DNA from: Bradyrhizobium sp. WBOS07
GTDB lineage: Bacteria > Pseudomonadota > Alphaproteobacteria > Rhizobiales > Xanthobacteraceae
Assembly: GCF_024585165.1 (NCBI RefSeq)
Contig: NZ_CP029008.1
Coordinates: 434,001 to 498,000, forward strand
DNA length: 64,000 nucleotides
Reading direction: 5' to 3'
The position numbers were made by a program, and so were the translations under genes. Within the stretch, counting starts at the first letter, position 1, and every line of letters begins with the position of its first letter. The notes under the pieces were generated by a model. It saw only the letters and a program-made list of their open reading frames with translations. It searched no databases and was not told the DNA's origin. Shown one piece after another: positions 6,623-13,864 of this stretch.

Positions 6623-6648
6623 TGATCCGGCGGCCGGCCCCGGTCGTT
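6623..6648 (+). promoter_or_regulatory. TGATCC-N16-CGTT promoter of the ECF sigma gene
   Basis: TGATCC (6623-6628), 16 nt, CGTT (6645-6648), 31 nt before the ATG at 6680. The same elements with identical spacing occur at three other transcription units in the next 4 kb. TGATCC is the known -35 element of RpoE/ChrR-type sigma factors in Rhodobacter, so this is probably an autoregulatory promoter. Confidence 0.65.
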
Positions 6649-6679
6649 TTCAGCCCAAGAGGTCGCTTGTCGAGGCGCT

Positions 6680-7336
6680 ATGATCGCTGCTATCCGGGCT
6701 TTGAATGTGCCAATCCGGGCTGAGGCTGGTTTTCCCCGGAGGGTTGCGGGGCGGCTGTCGATTGGTGCGAGCAAAGGGCCGAAGACAAAGGTGGATTGGG
6801 CTGATTTGATCGGACGCGTCGCCTCTGACGGCGACCGGGAGGCTTTCAAGCGGCTGTTCGAGCATTTCGCGCCCCGCATCAAGGGGCTGATGCTCAAAGC
6901 CGGCTGCAGCCCCGACGAGGCGGAAGAGATCGCCCAAAACAGCATGATCGCCGTATGGCGGAAGGCGCACCAGTTCGACCCTGCGACAGCCGGCGCGCCG
7001 GCCTGGATTTTCACGATCGCGCGCAATCTGCGGATCGATTTGTTCCGCCGCCGGGCCCGGCTCGACCGCCTGGAAGCCGGATCTGAGCTGCCTGATGCAG
7101 CGGATCAAGCCGAACCGGCCGATATCCTGATTTCGCGCGGGCAGGAAGCCGCACGGATCGCATCAGCCATCAAGCAACTCTCGGCGGAGCAATCCACGGT
7201 GGTGAAGCTATCGTTCATCGAGGAAAGACCGCATCCGGAAATCGCGAGCGCGCTCGGGATTCCGCTCGGGACGGTCAAGTCACGGATCAGGCTGGCGATG
7301 AACCGGTTACGCGACATTTTGGACGAAGAAGCATGA
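6680..7336 (+). CDS. rpoE: ECF RNA polymerase sigma factor, RpoE/ECF11-like
   Basis: 218-residue ECF sigma factor. Region 2 runs from about residue 52 (REAFKRLFEHFAPRIKGLMLKAG) through EEIAQNSMIAVWRKAHQFD and PAWIFTIARNLRIDLFRRR. Region 4 is near residues 160-210 (QLSAEQSTVVKLSFIEE, HPEIASALGIPLGTVKSRIRLAM). Its stop overlaps the start of a ChrR anti-sigma gene (ATGA), the diagnostic arrangement for the singlet-oxygen-responsive RpoE-ChrR pair. Start ATG 6680 has GAGG 5 nt upstream; residues 1-38 precede the conserved core, so a later start cannot be excluded. Recruits RNA polymerase to TGATCC-type promoters when ChrR releases it (family knowledge). Confidence 0.9.
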   Translation: MIAAIRALNVPIRAEAGFPRRVAGRLSIGASKGPKTKVDWADLIGRVASDGDREAFKRLFEHFAPRIKGLMLKAGCSPDEAEEIAQNSMIAVWRKAHQFDPATAGAPAWIFTIARNLRIDLFRRRARLDRLEAGSELPDAADQAEPADILISRGQEAARIASAIKQLSAEQSTVVKLSFIEERPHPEIASALGIPLGTVKSRIRLAMNRLRDILDEEA

Positions 7337-7974
7337 CGATCAGCCATCATCCGCCGGAAGATCTTCTGGCCGATTTCGCGGCCGGCAGGCTGGAAGAGGC
7401 CCATCACCTGGTCGTCGGGGTGCACGTGGCAGGCTGCGCGCGCTGCGCCCGCTTCGTGCAGGCCATCGAGCAGCTCGCGGGCGCCGCGCTGGAGGATGTC
7501 GAGCCGGTGCCCACCGCACCGGATGCGTTCGATCGCGTGATGTCGCGAATTCACGACGCTCCGGCACATACAGCCGCGGCGCCCCTCACGTCCGACACGG
7601 ATGATGATATTCCGCCGGCACTGCGAAAATATCGCATCGGCAAGCGCAGGCGTGTCGCGCCGGGTCTCAGCCTGCGCCCGATCGAGCTGTCCGGCTCAGG
7701 CACGGCCCGTGCTTTCCTGCTTCGGTCAGCGCCAGGCTCGCGCATGCTCGAACACACCCACACCGGCACCGAGTTGACGCTCGTGCTCGAGGGCAGCTTC
7801 AGCCATGAGGGCGGACGCTTTGGCCCTGGGGATTTCGACTACGGCGACGACGAGATCGATCATCGTCCCATCGTCGGCACCGAAGGCCCCTGCCTCTGCC
7901 TGGTCGCGATGACCGGCGACCTGCGCATGAACGGCTTGCTCGGCCGACTGATTGGGCCCTTCGTGCGTCTGTAA
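7333..7974 (+). CDS. chrR: ChrR-type zinc anti-sigma factor with cupin domain
   Basis: 213-residue partner that holds the ECF sigma factor inactive. The N-terminal zinc anti-sigma domain shows His6, His31, Cys35 and Cys38 (HVAGCARC), the same positions as the zinc ligands known for Rhodobacter sphaeroides ChrR. The C-terminal cupin (residues about 110-205) carries the second metal set EHTHTGTE followed by a later DHRP histidine, the part needed to respond to singlet oxygen in that system. Translationally coupled to the sigma gene by a 4-nt overlap. Family assignment is secure; the signal sensed here is inferred. Confidence 0.92.
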   Translation: MTISHHPPEDLLADFAAGRLEEAHHLVVGVHVAGCARCARFVQAIEQLAGAALEDVEPVPTAPDAFDRVMSRIHDAPAHTAAAPLTSDTDDDIPPALRKYRIGKRRRVAPGLSLRPIELSGSGTARAFLLRSAPGSRMLEHTHTGTELTLVLEGSFSHEGGRFGPGDFDYGDDEIDHRPIVGTEGPCLCLVAMTGDLRMNGLLGRLIGPFVRL

Positions 7975-7999
7975 CCTGCCTCGCCCTTCTCCCGCCGGG

Positions 8000-8025
8000 T
8001 GATCCGCGCCTGCGCCCGGAGCGTT
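8000..8025 (+). promoter_or_regulatory. TGATCC-N16-CGTT promoter of the second sigma gene
   Basis: TGATCC (8000-8005), 16 nt, CGTT (8022-8025), 28 nt before ATG 8053. It matches the promoter of the first sigma gene in both boxes and spacing, suggesting the second sigma factor is made under control of the first. Confidence 0.65.
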
Positions 8026-8038
8026 TCGTAGGAAACGC
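8021..8038 (+). other. Perfect hairpin over the -10 region
   Basis: GCGTTTC, 4-nt loop GTAG, GAAACGC: a perfect 7-bp inverted repeat overlapping the CGTT element and ending 14 nt before the start codon. It could be a regulator site or a 5'-leader hairpin close to the ribosome-binding site. Confidence 0.45.
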
Positions 8039-8052
8039 AAGGGAGACAGGAC

Positions 8053-8637
8053 ATGGCCTGTTCGAGTCCGGCAAGTCAGGTGCCGAGCGAGAGGTTGCAG
8101 GAAGTGCTGGCCCGCGTCTCCGCAGGCGAGCCACGCGCCTTCGCAGAGCTCCATACGCTGACGCGCGGCAGACTGCGCAGGATCGCGCTGACCGTTGGCG
8201 CCTCGCCGCACGATGCCGACGACATCCTCCAGGAAAGCTTCTTGAAGATCTGGCGCAACGCCGCTCGGTTCGATTCCCGTCGGGCATCGGCCATGACCTG
8301 GATGTCCGCAATCGTCCGAAACACCGCGATCGATCATCTGCGGATCAGAAGACAGCCAAGTCTCGAACTGGACAAGGCGCTCATGGTCCCGACGGCAGCC
8401 GGGCCATCGCCGACCGAGGATTTCGATTACGCCGGCGCCGAACCCATTGCCTTGGGAGCATTGGCTCGCCTGCCGGCAGATCGCCGCAGGCTGGTCGCTC
8501 TGGCTTATCTCGAAGGTGAGAGCCGCGCGAGCCTGTCTCAGCGCTTCGGCGTGCCGGTCGGCACCATCAAGACCTGGCTGCACCGGACCATGTTGACGGT
8601 GCGCAAGGATTGCCTTGCCGCATCGGCCGCGGCCTGA
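8053..8637 (+). CDS. Second ECF sigma-70 family factor
   Basis: 194-residue ECF sigma factor. Region 2 covers about residues 30-90 (RAFAELHTLTRGRLRRIALTVG, DADDILQESFLKIWRNAARFD, SAMTWMSAIVRNTAIDHLRIRR). Region 4 is near 140-185 (LARLPADRRRLVALAYLEG, SLSQRFGVPVGTIKTWLHR). The ribosome site is GGGAGACAGGAC just before the ATG. Unlike many relatives (SigK/RskA type) it has no recognisable anti-sigma gene next to it; only a short coiled-coil-like protein follows. Its promoter resembles that of the upstream ECF factor, so it may act as a second tier in the same response. Confidence 0.9.
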   Translation: MACSSPASQVPSERLQEVLARVSAGEPRAFAELHTLTRGRLRRIALTVGASPHDADDILQESFLKIWRNAARFDSRRASAMTWMSAIVRNTAIDHLRIRRQPSLELDKALMVPTAAGPSPTEDFDYAGAEPIALGALARLPADRRRLVALAYLEGESRASLSQRFGVPVGTIKTWLHRTMLTVRKDCLAASAAA

Positions 8638-8656
8638 AGCCGGCAAGAGCCCGTGC

Positions 8657-8959
8657 ATGGACGCCGAGATCATTGAATTTCCCGAGCGTGGACGCGAGAA
8701 CCGACTTGTCGCCGCGACGGCAAGGCTCGAAGCGATTGTGCGAGAAGTCGAAAGTATCGCATCCGACGAGCCTGCAGCCGACGCCGATCGGCTGCTCGCA
8801 ATGATGGAGCGCATGGGCGATCGACTGGTCGATCTCGCAGGCCTTTTGCTCGACCAGGAGTCGAAGCTGCAAGCTCAGAGGGCGTTTAAATCCCTGTCCG
8901 ACAAGATCGCGGAAACCCGCGAAGCGTTCGGGCAGCTCGGAGACCGCAAGCAGACCTGA
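8657..8959 (+). CDS. Small acidic helical protein downstream of sigma factor
   Basis: 100 residues, unknown function. It begins MDAEIIEFPERGREN and is otherwise predicted helical with heptad-like stretches (RLEAIVREVESIA, LLAMMERMGDRLVDLAGLLLDQESKLQ). No cysteines, no membrane segment, and no match to a known anti-sigma domain. The ATG at 8657 is 19 nt after the sigma stop; an alternative ATG at 8615 would overlap the sigma gene. Probably co-transcribed with the sigma factor, which makes it the obvious candidate for an unusual regulator, though that is speculation. Confidence 0.6.
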   Translation: MDAEIIEFPERGRENRLVAATARLEAIVREVESIASDEPAADADRLLAMMERMGDRLVDLAGLLLDQESKLQAQRAFKSLSDKIAETREAFGQLGDRKQT

Positions 8960-9022
8960 CGCGAGGTCAAGCCGGCTCTGTCGCGCCAGATCTTGCTTGA
9001 GCCAAGCCTTGGTTGCGCGGGA

Positions 9023-9424
9023 TCAGTGCGCCAGCTTCTGCGCGACAACGAATCCGATCCAGGCACTGATGCCGGCGAGAAACGATCCCCAGCAAACGTC
9101 CGCAAGGGTCAGGCCGGTCGACCAGTTGCGCAGCGTCGCCTGGTTGGTCAGATCGTAGGTCGCGTAGGTGAAACAGCCGAGCAGCAGGCCGGATGTAAAC
9201 GCGCGCAGCGCGCCGCCATCCTGCTGCGCGGGCAGCACGGCAAACCAGATCAGGCCGACGGGATACAACAGGTAGAACGCGGCCGCGGCCGCCAGGTTGG
9301 GCTGAGCCCGCAACATATCGCCCAGCACCGGCCGATACAGCCTCTCGACCATGAGCGTGAGCCAGACCATGTCGATCGCAACGAAGGTCACGGCCACCGC
9401 AAGATAGGTCAAGAAAAGGTTCAT
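9023..9424 (-). CDS. DUF2177 membrane protein
   Basis: 133-residue integral membrane protein of the DUF2177 family with four predicted membrane segments: LTYLAVAVTFVAIDMVWL, AAAAAFYLLYPVGLIWFAVL, RAFTSGLLLGCFTYATYDL and a final WGSFLAGISAWIGFVVA. Conserved family-type segments include YDLTNQATLRNW. Function is unknown. It has its own TGATCC-N16-CGTT promoter 57 nt upstream, placing it in the ECF/ChrR-type regulon by sequence. Confidence 0.85.
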   Translation of the reverse strand: MNLFLTYLAVAVTFVAIDMVWLTLMVERLYRPVLGDMLRAQPNLAAAAAFYLLYPVGLIWFAVLPAQQDGGALRAFTSGLLLGCFTYATYDLTNQATLRNWSTGLTLADVCWGSFLAGISAWIGFVVAQKLAH

Positions 9425-9480
9425 GCCCGCGTTCCCAGTCCGGCTGCATCTGACCGGCTCGTCGCGCCGATCGTCAGGTT

Positions 9481-9506
9481 AACGACCCGCAAGCCGTGAC
9501 GGATCA
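9481..9506 (-). promoter_or_regulatory. TGATCC-N16-CGTT promoter of the DUF2177 gene
   Basis: Read on the minus strand: TGATCC (9506-9501), 16 nt, CGTT (9484-9481), 57 nt before the DUF2177 start at 9424. Third copy of the locus-wide promoter pattern. Confidence 0.65.
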
Positions 9507-9564
9507 CATCGGCAAGTCGCTTGCCTTTGCGCCCAGTCAGCGGTCCGCAATCGCGAGAACATGA

Positions 9565-10368
9565 TCACACAACCTGTCGCACCGGCCATGGGAAGAATGC
9601 GCTGGTGCGCGCCTGGTACTGACGATATCGCTCGCCGCGCGATTTCAGCATCTGCTCCTCGAGCGGCGGTATTCCCGTCACATGGACCAGGATCCAGTAC
9701 ATGATCGCTGGCGCCGCCAGGCTGGCCCAACCCCATGCATATCCGGGCGACAGCGCGATGACCGGGTAAGCCAGCCACCCCAGCCATTCGAAGAAATAGT
9801 TCGGATGACGCGACCAGCGCCATACACCGACATCGCAGACGAGCCCGGCGTTGGATGGGCTGAGCTTGAAGCGCCGCAGCTGCCGGTCCGCCAATGCCTC
9901 GCCGGCGACGGCAATCAGGATGATGACGATCCCGGCATAGTCCTGCAGGCGCAGTTCAGGCGCCGGCGCGTGCGCCGCGAGGAAGACGGCGAACGGCAGC
10001 GGCACCGAGACCAGCGCCTGCGACTGCAGGAACAGGAACATCCGGCGAGGCGCCGCAGCTCCCCATTGCCGCGCGTAGTTCGCATAGCGTGGGTCGTCGA
10101 TCCCCGCTGCGGAGCGGCGCGCAATGTGCGTCCCAAGCCTCACCGACCAAAGCAGCACCAGCGCTCCGACCAGGAACCGGCGAGCCGGGGAACCGCCGTC
10201 GAGCGGCCACAAAGCTGCACCTGCGCCAACGAGACCGGTCGCGTAGGACCAGATCGCGTCGACCCAGCCGGAATTGCCGGTGCGCTGCTGAACGACCCAG
10301 GCCAGGGCCATCAAAAGGCAGAGGGCCAAAGCAATGCCGCCTATCGCCTGAATGTGCAGAAGAATCAT
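9565..10368 (-). CDS. DUF1295 / isoprenylcysteine-methyltransferase-like membrane protein
   Basis: 267-residue polytopic membrane protein of the DUF1295 (steroid 5-alpha-reductase-like) family. The C-terminal half shows the family signature WRWSRHPNYFFEWLGWLAYP and a following PLLEEQ-like segment (IPPLEEQMLKSRGERYRQYQ). The N-terminal half has about four membrane helices. These proteins are thought to be lipid-modifying reductases or methyltransferases, but the reaction is unknown. It is divergent from the FAD oxidoreductase-DUF1365-Cfa operon. I could not find the TGATCC-type promoter on this strand in the 168-nt gap. Confidence 0.85.
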   Translation of the reverse strand: MILLHIQAIGGIALALCLLMALAWVVQQRTGNSGWVDAIWSYATGLVGAGAALWPLDGGSPARRFLVGALVLLWSVRLGTHIARRSAAGIDDPRYANYARQWGAAAPRRMFLFLQSQALVSVPLPFAVFLAAHAPAPELRLQDYAGIVIILIAVAGEALADRQLRRFKLSPSNAGLVCDVGVWRWSRHPNYFFEWLGWLAYPVIALSPGYAWGWASLAAPAIMYWILVHVTGIPPLEEQMLKSRGERYRQYQARTSAFFPWPVRQVV

Positions 10369-10453
10369 ACCCTCACCGCAATCGACCTCTCTGGATACGG
10401 CCGCTGGGCGCGCCGGTTTCGGTCGGTGGCGGGGCGCCGGACGGCCAGCAAAG

Positions 10454-10479
10454 TGATCTGCGCCATCTCGCCAAGCGTT
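10454..10479 (+). promoter_or_regulatory. TGATCT-N16-CGTT promoter of the FAD/DUF1365/Cfa operon
   Basis: TGATCT (10454-10459), 16 nt, CGTT (10476-10479), 57 nt before ATG 10537. Fourth copy of the pattern, with one change in the last base of the -35 box. Confidence 0.6.
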
Positions 10480-10536
10480 CCCTGACGATTGTTTCGAGCA
10501 CCGTCGCTGACGGTACCGCAGTGGGGGCGACAGAGA

Positions 10537-11850
10537 ATGCGTTTGGCCGTGATCGGGACGGGAATTGCCGGCAATGCCGCCGCGTGGCTCCTGTCGAAAC
10601 GTTACGCCGTCACTGTTTACGAGCGTGAGCTACAGCCGGGGGGACATAGTCATACCGTTCGTATCCACTATGACGGTGAGCCGATCGATGTGGACGTCGG
10701 CTTCATCGTGTTCAACGAGGCGAACTACCCGCAATTGACCTCGCTGTTCACGCATCTCGGCGTGAAGACCATCGAGACTTGCATGAGCTTCGCCATGTCC
10801 GTCGATCATGGCCGATTCGAATGGCGTGGCGGCGGCGAGACCGCGTTGCAAACGGCCTGCGGCCTGTTTGCGCAACCGCGCAACCTCGCATCGCCATCCT
10901 ACTTTCGCATGCTGGCCGAGGTCATGCGGTTCAACCGGCAGAGCGTGGCCGATCTGCACGCCGGCCGGCTGCACAACCTGACGCTCGGCGAGTATCTGCG
11001 CAAGGAATCATTCGGTTCGCGCCTGTTCTCCGACTATCTCGGCCCGATGGGGGCCGCCATCTGGTCATCCTCATCGGATGACATTCAGTCCTTTCCGGCG
11101 GAGAACTTCGTCGCCTTCTTCAACAATCACCGGCTCTTGCACCTCGATCGACCGCGCTGGCGGACCGTGGAGGGGGGCAGCCGGCGCTATGTCGACAAGC
11201 TGACCGCTTTGTTCAAGCACAACATTCGGCTAGGCTGTGCGGTGACATCGATCAACCGAGCTGGGTCTGGCGTGACCGTCCGCGACAGTCATGGCGGTGT
11301 GGAAAGTTACGATGCCGTTGTGATGGCCTGTCACAGCGATCAGGCCTTGGCGGCCTTGTCGGATGCCGACGCCCAGGAGCATTCGATTCTCGGGGCGATC
11401 AGATATGCCCCCAACACCGTCTATCTGCACCGTGATCCCCGTCTCATGCCCCGCCGGCGTCAGGCATGGGCATCCTGGAACTTCCTGCGGTGGCCGCGGC
11501 AAACCCCCGCCCAGAACGATGTCGCGGTGACCTATTGGATGAATCGGCTCCAGGGCATCGACAAGCGCAAGCCGTTGTTCGTCAGCCTCAACCCTCCCTT
11601 CGAGCCGGCGGCCGATCTGACGTTTGGAAAATTCAGCTTCGCCCATCCGCAATATGACATGGCTGCATTCGCGGCGCAGCGGCGACTGCCCACGATTCAA
11701 GGGCGTCGGCGAACCTGGTTCTGCGGCGCCTGGACCGGCTACGGCTTTCACGAGGATGGCTTGCAGGCCGGCATCTCCGTTGCCGAGGCGCTCGGCAGCG
11801 AGGCTCCATGGCGTCAACCGGTCCCATTGCTGGCCGAAGCTGCCGAGTAG
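10537..11850 (+). CDS. FAD-dependent oxidoreductase (COG2907-type)
   Basis: 437 residues. Starts with the FAD-binding motif RLAVIGTGIAGNAAAWLL and VYERELQPGGHSHTV. Later segments IDVDVGFIVFNEANYP and the C-terminal WFCGAWTGYGFHEDGLQAG are characteristic of the NAD/FAD-binding proteins that travel with DUF1365 and cyclopropane synthase genes. It probably oxidises or desaturates a membrane-lipid acyl chain, but that is inferred from the neighbours. I chose ATG 10537 rather than the longer frame from 10489 because the Rossmann motif begins at once. First gene of a three-gene operon. Confidence 0.88.
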   Translation: MRLAVIGTGIAGNAAAWLLSKRYAVTVYERELQPGGHSHTVRIHYDGEPIDVDVGFIVFNEANYPQLTSLFTHLGVKTIETCMSFAMSVDHGRFEWRGGGETALQTACGLFAQPRNLASPSYFRMLAEVMRFNRQSVADLHAGRLHNLTLGEYLRKESFGSRLFSDYLGPMGAAIWSSSSDDIQSFPAENFVAFFNNHRLLHLDRPRWRTVEGGSRRYVDKLTALFKHNIRLGCAVTSINRAGSGVTVRDSHGGVESYDAVVMACHSDQALAALSDADAQEHSILGAIRYAPNTVYLHRDPRLMPRRRQAWASWNFLRWPRQTPAQNDVAVTYWMNRLQGIDKRKPLFVSLNPPFEPAADLTFGKFSFAHPQYDMAAFAAQRRLPTIQGRRRTWFCGAWTGYGFHEDGLQAGISVAEALGSEAPWRQPVPLLAEAAE

Positions 11851-11854
11851 CACG

Positions 11855-12643
11855 ATGGCCCGAACGACACCGACCAGAGCGGAGGATACGACATCGCCCG
11901 CCGCACTCTATTGGGGGAAGGTGATGCACGCGCGGTGGCGCCCCGTGCAGCACAGGTTCACCTACCGCGTGATGAACCTGCTGATTGATCTCGACCAATT
12001 GACGGAAGCGGATCACCAGTCCTGGCTGTTCGGCATCAATCGCGCGGCACCCTTCAGCTTTCACGAGCAGGATCACGGTGACGGCAACAACGCGGGCCTC
12101 AGCCAATACGTCAGACGCATCGCAGCGGAACGCGACATCGACCTCACCGGAGGCCGCGTTCTGCTGCTCTGCTATCCCAGGGTCCTGGGCTACGTGTTCA
12201 ACCCGCTTTCGATCTATTTTTGCCATGACGCTGCAGGCAATCTCGCGCTGTTGATCTACGAAGTCCGCAACACGTTCGGAGAGATGCATTCCTACGTCCT
12301 TCCGGTGCAGGGGGCGGAGCCGGGCTGCGCCATACGCCAAAGCCAGACGAAGGAGTTCTACGTTTCTCCTTTCATGGAGATGGAAACGCATTACCGCTTC
12401 AGCGTTTCTCCCCCGCAACAGGATGTGAAGGTCAGAATCGTGCAGAGCAGCAAACAAGGCGCGATGTTTGCGGCGGCATTCAGCGGACGACGTCGTGCTC
12501 TGACCAGCCACTCCCTGCTGGCGGCGCTGTTCGCCTTGCCTTTCCTGACCATCAAGGTGATCGCAGCCATCCACTGGGAAGCGATGCGGCTCTGGTTGAA
12601 GGGTGTTCCCTACGTGCCTCGTTTGAAACAACGCGAGATCTGA
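11855..12643 (+). CDS. DUF1365 family protein
   Basis: 262 residues of the DUF1365 family. Typical segments are ALYWGKVMHARWRPVQHRF, GRVLLLCYPRVLGYVFNPLS, IYEVRNTFGEMHSY and KEFYVSPFMEMETHYRF. A hydrophobic stretch lies near the C-terminus. Biochemical function is not established; the family is almost always found between an FAD oxidoreductase and a cyclopropane synthase, as here. The ATG is 4 nt after the previous stop; the much longer frame starting at 11624 overlaps the upstream gene and is not used. Confidence 0.85.
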   Translation: MARTTPTRAEDTTSPAALYWGKVMHARWRPVQHRFTYRVMNLLIDLDQLTEADHQSWLFGINRAAPFSFHEQDHGDGNNAGLSQYVRRIAAERDIDLTGGRVLLLCYPRVLGYVFNPLSIYFCHDAAGNLALLIYEVRNTFGEMHSYVLPVQGAEPGCAIRQSQTKEFYVSPFMEMETHYRFSVSPPQQDVKVRIVQSSKQGAMFAAAFSGRRRALTSHSLLAALFALPFLTIKVIAAIHWEAMRLWLKGVPYVPRLKQREI

Positions 12644-12646
12644 ACC

Positions 12647-13864
12647 ATGGACCTGGCAGCCACCCATCAGGACCTTCACTTTGATGGCGTTCCGTTCTTT
12701 GCCCGCCTGGCTCTGCGCCTTGCATCGCAACTTCGCTGCGGCACCATCCACGTGCGCCTTCCCGACCAGAGAATGGTCACGTTGCGTGGCCAGCTTCCGG
12801 GTCCGTCGGCCACGATCGAGCTCAACAATTACAGGTTCGCCCGCAGCCTCGTCATCGGCGGCGATATCGGCATGGCCGAGGCCTATGTTCGAGGCGATTG
12901 GTCCACGCCCGATCTTGCCCAGCTTCTCTACGTGTTCTGTCTCAACGAAGACCTGGTCGACAGCGCCTTTGCCGGAAACATGCTGGTTCGCCTGTGCCGG
13001 CGGGCGCTTCATCGCCTGCGCCGGAATACCAAGGAGGGATCGAGGCACAACATCCACAAGCATTATGATCTCGGAAATGAGTTCTTCGCCGCGTGGCTCG
13101 ATTCCAGCATGACCTACTCATCGGCGCTGTTCCCGGCCGAGACCGCCGACCTTCCCGCCGCTCAACAGCACAAATACGAACAGCTGGCGCAGGCTATCGA
13201 ATTGCAGCCCGGCCAGAGCGTGCTCGAGATCGGATGCGGCTGGGGCGGTTTCGCCGAATTCGCCGCCAAGACTTACGGCGCCAGCGTATTGGCCCTCACC
13301 ATCAGCAAGGAGCAGCATGAATTCGCCCGTCGCCGGATCTACGAGGCCGGGCTCGCCGAAAAGGTCGAGGTTCGATTGCAGGATTATCGCGACCAGGACG
13401 GTCGCTTCGACCGCATTGCTTCCATCGAGATGATCGAGGCCGTCGGCGAGCAGTTCTGGCCTGCCTATTTCAACCAGCTGAAGCAGCGGCTCAAGCCCGG
13501 GGGGCTTGCCGGCATCCAGGCCATCACGGTTCGCGACGAGCTCTTTGGCAGCTATCGGCAGCGTGTGGACTTCATCCAGAGATACATCTTTCCGGGCGGC
13601 ATGCTGCCGTCGACGAACATCCTGCGCGCGCTCGGCGAACGCTTCGAGCTGCCCGTCATTCGCGAGCGCCTGTTCGGACAGGACTACGCAAGGACCCTCT
13701 CACTCTGGCGCGACAATTTCAGCCAAGCCTGGACCGACCTGACCTCGCTCGGGTTCGACGAGCCCTTCCGCCGGCTGTGGGAATATTATCTGTGCTATTG
13801 CGAGGCCGGGTTCAGGGCCGGAAAGATCGACGTCGGGCAGCTGGTGTTTGCGCGGCGGGGGTGA
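12647..13864 (+). CDS. cfa: Cyclopropane-fatty-acyl-phospholipid synthase family methyltransferase
   Basis: 405-residue SAM-dependent enzyme that modifies double bonds of phospholipid acyl chains. The SAM-binding motif VLEIGCGWGGFAEFAA is near residue 191, preceded by HNIHKHYDLGNEFFAAWLD and followed by IEMIEAVGEQFWPAYF and the iron-sulfur-free C-terminal FIQRYIFPGG segment, all in family order. A CFA synthase gene belongs to the RpoE-ChrR regulon in Rhodobacter sphaeroides, supporting a role in membrane protection from singlet oxygen. Starts 3 nt after the DUF1365 stop. Confidence 0.92.
   Translation: MDLAATHQDLHFDGVPFFARLALRLASQLRCGTIHVRLPDQRMVTLRGQLPGPSATIELNNYRFARSLVIGGDIGMAEAYVRGDWSTPDLAQLLYVFCLNEDLVDSAFAGNMLVRLCRRALHRLRRNTKEGSRHNIHKHYDLGNEFFAAWLDSSMTYSSALFPAETADLPAAQQHKYEQLAQAIELQPGQSVLEIGCGWGGFAEFAAKTYGASVLALTISKEQHEFARRRIYEAGLAEKVEVRLQDYRDQDGRFDRIASIEMIEAVGEQFWPAYFNQLKQRLKPGGLAGIQAITVRDELFGSYRQRVDFIQRYIFPGGMLPSTNILRALGERFELPVIRERLFGQDYARTLSLWRDNFSQAWTDLTSLGFDEPFRRLWEYYLCYCEAGFRAGKIDVGQLVFARRG

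Follow-up and report, generated by a model that had tools for sequence, protein, structure and literature searches.

Conserved ECF11-type promoters suggest that an RpoE–ChrR-type system controls a second ECF sigma factor gene in Bradyrhizobium

The 64,000-nucleotide (nt) stretch of Bradyrhizobium sp. WBOS07 DNA analyzed here (contig NZ_CP029008.1; G000:C1:434001-498000, hereafter the window) encodes two extracytoplasmic function (ECF) sigma factors, sigma1, whose gene is followed by one for a ChrR-type anti-sigma factor, and sigma2. Four transcription units, those of sigma1–chrR, of sigma2, of a DUF2177 protein and of an operon encoding a flavin adenine dinucleotide (FAD)-dependent protein, a DUF1365 protein and a cyclopropane-synthase-type (Cfa) methyltransferase, are preceded by the pattern TGATCY-N16-CGTT (sites P1 to P4, respectively). 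This arrangement raises the question of whether the four sites are promoters, which of the two sigma factors reads them and what role a second ECF factor plays in such a cluster. Our reading, to which we assign a probability of roughly 85%, is that sigma1 recognizes the four sites and that sigma2 constitutes a second tier of the response.

An initial annotation of the sequence had pointed out the identical 16-nt gap of the four sites and judged it unlikely to be fortuitous. Indeed, all four are present, no other exact match occurs in the window, and dinucleotide-shuffled sequences contained 0.18 matches on average, with none of 100 reaching four. Upon varying the gap from 8 to 24 nt, spacing 16 yielded four matches in the window and each other spacing zero to two. 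Across the 6.73 Mb covered by our genome scan (one contig), the exact pattern occurs 27 times, four of them within 3.9 kb, and the variant ending in CGTA instead of CGTT seven times. A crude codon-based gene caller, which called 87% of the window coding, placed 13 of the 27 matches in intergenic DNA, five over a gene end and nine inside genes; nine of the 13 intergenic matches, including those of the window, have a same-strand gene start within 300 nt. The 27 genome-wide occurrences, of which 18 either coincide with a gene, wholly or in part, or are not followed within 300 nt by a called gene start, are what one might expect if the four sites were chance matches in a GC-rich genome. The shuffles, together with site conservation across 61 loci whose spacers vary, already contradict this explanation, which we regard as virtually impossible.

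Conservation across loci is the strongest evidence that the sites are real. Our set comprises the window and 60 fetched loci (61 loci, 890,636 bases), of which 43 carry sigma2 (from 65 matched relatives) and 17 carry ChrR with no sigma2 in the locus (from 69 genomes with a match). Counting any N16 match within 260 nt before a gene, the site is found upstream of sigma1 in 61/61 loci, sigma2 in 44/44, the FAD gene in 31/32 and DUF2177 in 26/33, and upstream of the control gene, encoding a DUF1295 protein, in 0/32. These conserved sites support the extension of the regulon to a second sigma factor and to DUF2177 that the initial annotation had put forward. Spacing 16 accounts for 212 matches in the 61 loci, and 15 of the 16 other spacings for 1–11 each; spacing 21 has 35, of which 22 belong to a single class located apart from the tracked genes. 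The 212 matches divide into 162 upstream of the sigma1, sigma2, FAD or DUF2177 genes, 49 elsewhere and one inside a small open reading frame (ORF).

The consensus of the 162 sites is gTGATCC, 16 nt, CGTT/A, with T as the final base in 77%. Alignment of the loci from the window's own clade reveals that the boxes are kept and the spacer varies at the sigma1 (15/15), sigma2 (15/15) and DUF2177 (14/15) sites; in the FAD rows L123–L128, the aligned piece is too short to reach the site. Six of the seven DUF2177 genes lacking an exact site of their own are on the same strand behind a site-bearing folE gene (L156, L158, L159, L160, L162 and L174), and the seventh (L124) has TGATCC-N16-CGTC. Within the 61 loci, the site also precedes 17/17 folE genes, 11/17 tspO genes and 8/9 genes encoding an MHYT-GGDEF protein, the latter as TGATCC-N16-CGTA. 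This MHYT-GGDEF gene (L129, L141, L151 and others) lies on the opposite strand, upstream of sigma1.

The sigma1–ChrR pair has the hallmarks of an ECF11 system. The best solved-structure match of sigma1 is Rhodobacter sphaeroides RpoE (2q1z, E-value 4.7e-40). The adjacent ChrR protein scores 176 bits against TIGR02451 (cut-off 124.5) and its sequence contains a predicted zinc-binding HxxxCxxC motif. The promoter is found at the pair's own operon and at putative targets that include RSP1090/1091- and cfa-type genes. With the ATG at 6680 as its putative start, sigma1 would extend further at its N-terminus than R. sphaeroides RpoE does. The sigma1 leader and first codons (about 6668-6705) display strong nucleotide conservation in 15 aligned loci.

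Promoters recognized by R. sphaeroides RpoE have a TGATCC-type −35 element, and the initial annotation had identified the TGATCC box with it. This assignment agrees with the ECF11 consensus given in the available part of the Pseudomonas syringae study, TGATCC-N16-CGTA (PMC5507510), which our pattern equals save for a T in place of the final A of the −10 box. The available part of the Shewanella oneidensis report maps transcription starts behind boxes of the TGATCC and CGTA types and describes these as similar to those of R. sphaeroides (PMC4336711). Since the published P. syringae and S. oneidensis boxes match ours, the promoter type was already known; the new part is sigma2. By analogy with studied relatives, sigma1–ChrR is presumably induced by singlet oxygen.

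Two lines of evidence suggest that sigma1, rather than sigma2, reads these promoters. The sigma1 site is kept in 17/17 loci with no sigma2 (12 with CGTA and five with CGTT), and sigma2 is therefore unnecessary for the motif. Moreover, the recognition-helix stretches differ, LGIPLGTVKSRIRLAM in the sigma1 type versus FGVPVGTIKTWLHRT in the sigma2 type, from which we infer recognition of P2 by sigma1 and a different set of targets for sigma2. Were sigma2 instead to read the four sites or part of them, through autoregulation or regulon overlap, the presence of two ECF factors in one cluster would be accounted for, as would the −10 box, which is CGTT at both sigma1 and sigma2 in all 44 sigma2 loci and CGTA at sigma1 in 12 of the 17 loci without sigma2. 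However, the five remaining loci without sigma2 also have CGTT, all 17 have the TGATCC motif and the recognition helix of sigma2 does not resemble that of ECF11 factors, so that we consider this alternative quite improbable. We also looked for a sigma1 residue behind the choice of CGTT or CGTA and found three columns distinguishing the two classes; at these columns, however, the five loci with CGTT and no sigma2 look like the CGTA class, and the candidate residues were discarded.

If sigma1 controls P2, the nature of sigma2 becomes the central issue. In a tree of 77 rows, which was midpoint-rooted and has some long branches, the 16 rows of sigma2 cluster together (100/100), nested among ECF factors related to RskA-linked ones. 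Sigma1 and sigma2 fall in separate groups, each with 100/100 support, and sigma2 is not an ECF11 member. Its best NCBIfam model, PRK12514, scores 123.9 bits, below the cut-off of 265. A profile search for RskA-like anti-sigma factors returned 0/44 sigma2 loci versus 81/87 comparison loci; as 36 of the 87 served to build the profile, the independent part is 45/51. An RskA-like match in L031 likely belongs to a divergent ECF gene. Because the relatives of sigma2 normally have an RskA-like anti-sigma factor and sigma2 has none adjoining, its level is likely set by transcription.

Using thresholds of E 1e-45 for sigma2 and E 1e-20 for ChrR, sigma2 is present in 66 of the 265 genomes of our genus set and ChrR in 90, namely all 66 with sigma2 versus 24 of the 199 without it. 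No report of sigma2 was found in the available text of the literature on Bradyrhizobium ECF factors and singlet oxygen, ECF11/RpoE1-2 and ChrR, photosynthetic Bradyrhizobium, ECF33/ECF11 cascades and Caulobacter ChrR, a body in which few subscription papers were covered. A palindrome covering the P2 −10 box and the expected start may act as an operator: allowing G-U, all seven pairs form in 9/15 own-clade loci and six or more in 15/15, compared with 4/29 and 11/29, respectively, in the other sigma2 loci.

The surroundings of sigma2 vary among relatives. In 16 of the 44 sigma2 loci, the next gene resembles that of L137, which encodes a DPRP photolyase-related protein. In Afipia birgiae (L204), folE, rpoE, chrR, DUF2177 and a sigma2-like gene (39% identical) stand in a row on one strand, preceded by an ECF11 site, TGATCT-N16-CGTA. 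In G321 (L361), a similar site follows chrR and an ORF resembling, by eye, a receiver domain replaces sigma2. Outside the genus, in L359 (8817-9949), an ECF gene followed by one for an anti-sigma-like protein, whose cupin domain is of the ChrR type, runs divergently from a close relative of sigma2. One sigma2 match (L135, G347:C1:5357682-5358212) contains an in-frame TGA, which may point to a degenerating copy or to a misplaced start.

A candidate for a promoter read by sigma2 itself lies before the DUF1295 gene. GAAACC-N15/16-CGTA is found upstream of DUF1295 in 15/15 own-clade loci (13 with N15 and two with N16) and is a candidate sigma2 target. The motif also occurs upstream of L031, which in the tree is, with L204, closest to sigma2. 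The single N15 match in the window is not significant, as 20 of 100 shuffles contain at least one, and the fetched stretches of the other 29 sigma2 loci have no such conserved place. Among 92 sigma2-related ECF genes, GAAAC-N16/17-CGT[AT] precedes six and each of nine other spacings none, which is suggestive only. An EcfG-type GGAAC-N-CGT[AT] promoter was rejected (found once among the 92, at spacing 20, over the spacings 11 to 21), and a de novo promoter-motif search upstream of the same 92 genes returned no clear motif. Where sigma2 is absent from the locus, chrR is followed by DUF1295 in the same orientation in 17/17 cases, 12 at less than 200 nt and five at 919–989 nt.

The FAD–DUF1365–Cfa operon matches Rhodopseudomonas palustris ufaD-ufaO-ufaM, listed as RPA2571-2569 in the available part of that study (PMC7380195), in domain type and order. 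On this analogy it is probably a furan-fatty-acid operon, with a third gene that would encode UfaM rather than Cfa. Its leader contains an inverted repeat, ACCGTC-GCT-GACGGT (10500-10514), in a region partly conserved in close relatives. Among the literature naming DUF2177, we found no ECF11 paper, as judged by title. Our most detailed proposal, more doubtful than probable, is that sigma2 is a dedicated second-tier factor active through transcription from its ECF11 promoter only and reading GAAACC-N15/16-CGTA. In the window's clade, DUF1295 would have lost its place behind chrR to sigma2 and would stay in the response via the sigma2 promoter. Against singlet oxygen, DUF1295, UfaD, UfaO, UfaM and DUF2177 would then make up a membrane-lipid module, one that green algae share as a set of protein families.

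The initial annotation had described the regulon as a local one. The conserved sites at the four units bear it out as a regulon, but it is not just local, since the sites at distant folE and fasciclin genes are retained in relatives. These two were the ones that held among four matches assessed for conservation, out of 23 that lie beyond the window. Upstream of the fasciclin gene (G000:C1:5594455), the site is present in 7/9 orthologues (own genome counted) and 0/22 paralogues. Upstream of folE, encoding GTP cyclohydrolase I (G000:C1:3312029, minus strand), it is present in 11/17 orthologues, with two more near variants and four without, and in 0/4 paralogues. In another genome (G131:C1:5565638-5566864), a folE paralogue stands directly before a fasciclin gene on the same strand, linking the two distant members. 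A response regulator gene (L008) was rejected as a member (1/18), and FadJ (L019) was not counted, as its site is kept in 15/20 but its spacer is invariant too, making another constraint likely. rpoH was likewise rejected as a target: the two genes that score above the family cut-off have no TGATC within 400 nt upstream, and their best partial match has 8/10 positions at spacing 17. The R. sphaeroides RpoE targets in the available part of the published list include RSP_1409 (fasciclin), RSP_1852 (folE2), RSP_1090/1091 and cfaS (PMC7074977).

We propose the following sequence of events. ChrR, encoded in the sigma1 operon, would hold sigma1 until, as in studied relatives, singlet oxygen or organic peroxide inactivates it. 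Free sigma1 would transcribe its own operon, providing positive feedback, as well as the probable furan-fatty-acid operon, DUF2177 and the sigma2 gene; the distant folE and fasciclin genes would belong to the same set. The level of sigma2 would most likely be set by transcription from P2, giving rise to a second tier with its own promoter type.

Several observations weigh against sigma1 control of the four units and a second tier formed by sigma2. The bare pattern shows no genome-wide enrichment, with 27 matches at spacing 16 versus about 39 per spacing (667 in total for the 17 gap lengths 8–24), so that, judged by a plain scan, the regulon does not pass one version of the refuting test set by the initial annotation. 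A reversed-pattern control (1 versus 27 at spacing 16; 24 versus 667 over all spacings) is uninformative on spacing 16 because the ratio is similar throughout. The case for the sites rests on conservation, not on frequency, and the loci compared are kin to each other and were chosen for carrying ChrR or sigma2, their counts not being independent. The −10 box ends in T here and in A in the published consensus. The fasciclin orthologue is found in just 8/22 relatives searched. FAD and DUF1295 genes stand beside sigma2 in 15/44 sigma2 loci only, all from the own clade; the other 29 have neither in the fetched stretch, both are also found in the 17 loci without sigma2, and the full cluster is consequently not general to sigma2.

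The absence of an RskA-like gene, finally, leaves room for an unrelated inhibitor, which may be ChrR or the product of the small ORF behind sigma2, for which no Pfam or NCBIfam match was found. Sigma2 would in that case not be controlled by transcription alone, a view consistent with its genetic tie to ChrR (66/66 genomes) and with the position of the small ORF directly behind it. Given that the small ORF occurs in 15/44 sigma2 loci, in the own clade only, we deem such inhibition rather unlikely and favor control of sigma2 by transcription from P2.

Table 1. Features of the sigma1–chrR–sigma2 region (positions in the window)
Feature	Position	Strand	Support
ECF11-type promoter P1 of sigma1–chrR operon	6623..6648	+	−35 TGATCC 6623-6628, −10 CGTT 6645-6648; 61/61 loci
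Sigma1, ECF sigma factor, RpoE (ECF11) type	6680..7336	+	Sigma70_r2 and r4; 2q1z E 4.7e-40
ChrR-type anti-sigma factor, N-terminal HxxxCxxC and cupin domain	7333..7974	+	Cupin_7 4.4e-14; TIGR02451 176 bits
ECF11-type promoter P2 of sigma2 gene	8000..8025	+	exact match; 44/44 sigma2 loci
Palindrome GCGTTTC-GTAG-GAAACGC over P2 −10 box and expected start	8021..8038	+	possible operator
Sigma2, second ECF sigma factor, no recognized anti-sigma gene adjoining	8053..8637	+	Sigma70_r2 5.9e-17; one clade 100/100
Small ORF, 100 amino acids, behind sigma2	8657..8959	+	tblastn: 15/61 loci, own clade
DUF2177 membrane protein	9023..9424	−	PF09945 2.2e-42
ECF11-type promoter P3 of DUF2177	9481..9506	−	exact match; own site in 26/33 loci
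DUF1295 membrane protein, no ECF11 site upstream	9565..10368	−	PF06966 5.1e-65
Second ECF-like promoter GAAACC-N15-CGTA before DUF1295 (candidate)	10396..10420	−	15/15 own-clade loci
ECF11-type promoter P4 of FAD–DUF1365–Cfa operon	10454..10479	+	exact match; 31/32 loci
FAD-dependent amine-oxidase-type protein, UfaD-like (RSP1091 type)	10537..11850	+	PF01593 1.5e-20
DUF1365 protein, UfaO-like (RSP1090 type)	11855..12643	+	PF07103 6.7e-83
Cyclopropane-synthase-type methyltransferase, UfaM or Cfa type	12647..13864	+	PF02353 3.6e-86

An ECF sigma factor without a recognized anti-sigma gene placed under an ECF11 promoter would represent a compact ECF-to-ECF cascade in a nitrogen-fixing genus, one that comes with a named candidate for its second-tier promoter. 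A link between the RpoE–ChrR response and DUF2177, a family without assigned function, also emerges from our data.

The system most closely resembles R. sphaeroides RpoE–ChrR, with which, going by the available text on the latter, it shares the sigma/ChrR operon, the RSP1091/1090- and cfa-type genes, fasciclin and a GTP cyclohydrolase function. Both regulons also include a second sigma factor, which is RpoHII in R. sphaeroides whereas it is an ECF factor here. Further differences are FolE in place of FolE2 and the CGTT −10 box, and the 15-row R. sphaeroides target table, some rows of which are just hypothetical proteins, names no DUF2177 in the part available (PMC7074977). The P. syringae PSPTO_1043 and S. 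oneidensis RpoE2 systems, in the portions of those reports at hand, share identical boxes with 16-nt spacing and photolyase-type targets, and PSPTO_1043 has a diguanylate cyclase target that may be compared with the MHYT-GGDEF gene of the relatives described here; in contrast, their −10 box is CGTA and no second ECF gene was seen in those portions. Bradyrhizobium japonicum EcfQ, a class 33 ECF factor induced by H2O2 and singlet oxygen, is likewise described, in the available text, as having no neighboring anti-sigma gene, but its boxes, GCAGAC and TAACAAT, are 20 nt apart and unlike TGATCC (PMC3420878). Finally, the available part of the Chlamydomonas list of SAK1-dependent singlet-oxygen genes contains, by family name, CFA1, CFA2, DUF1365, DUF2177, DUF1295 and fasciclin-like entries (PMC4067076). 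Although this is a eukaryotic alga with unrelated regulation and many other genes on the list, the Cfa, DUF1365, DUF2177, DUF1295 and fasciclin names common to both provide a testable lead on how membranes may be protected from singlet oxygen.

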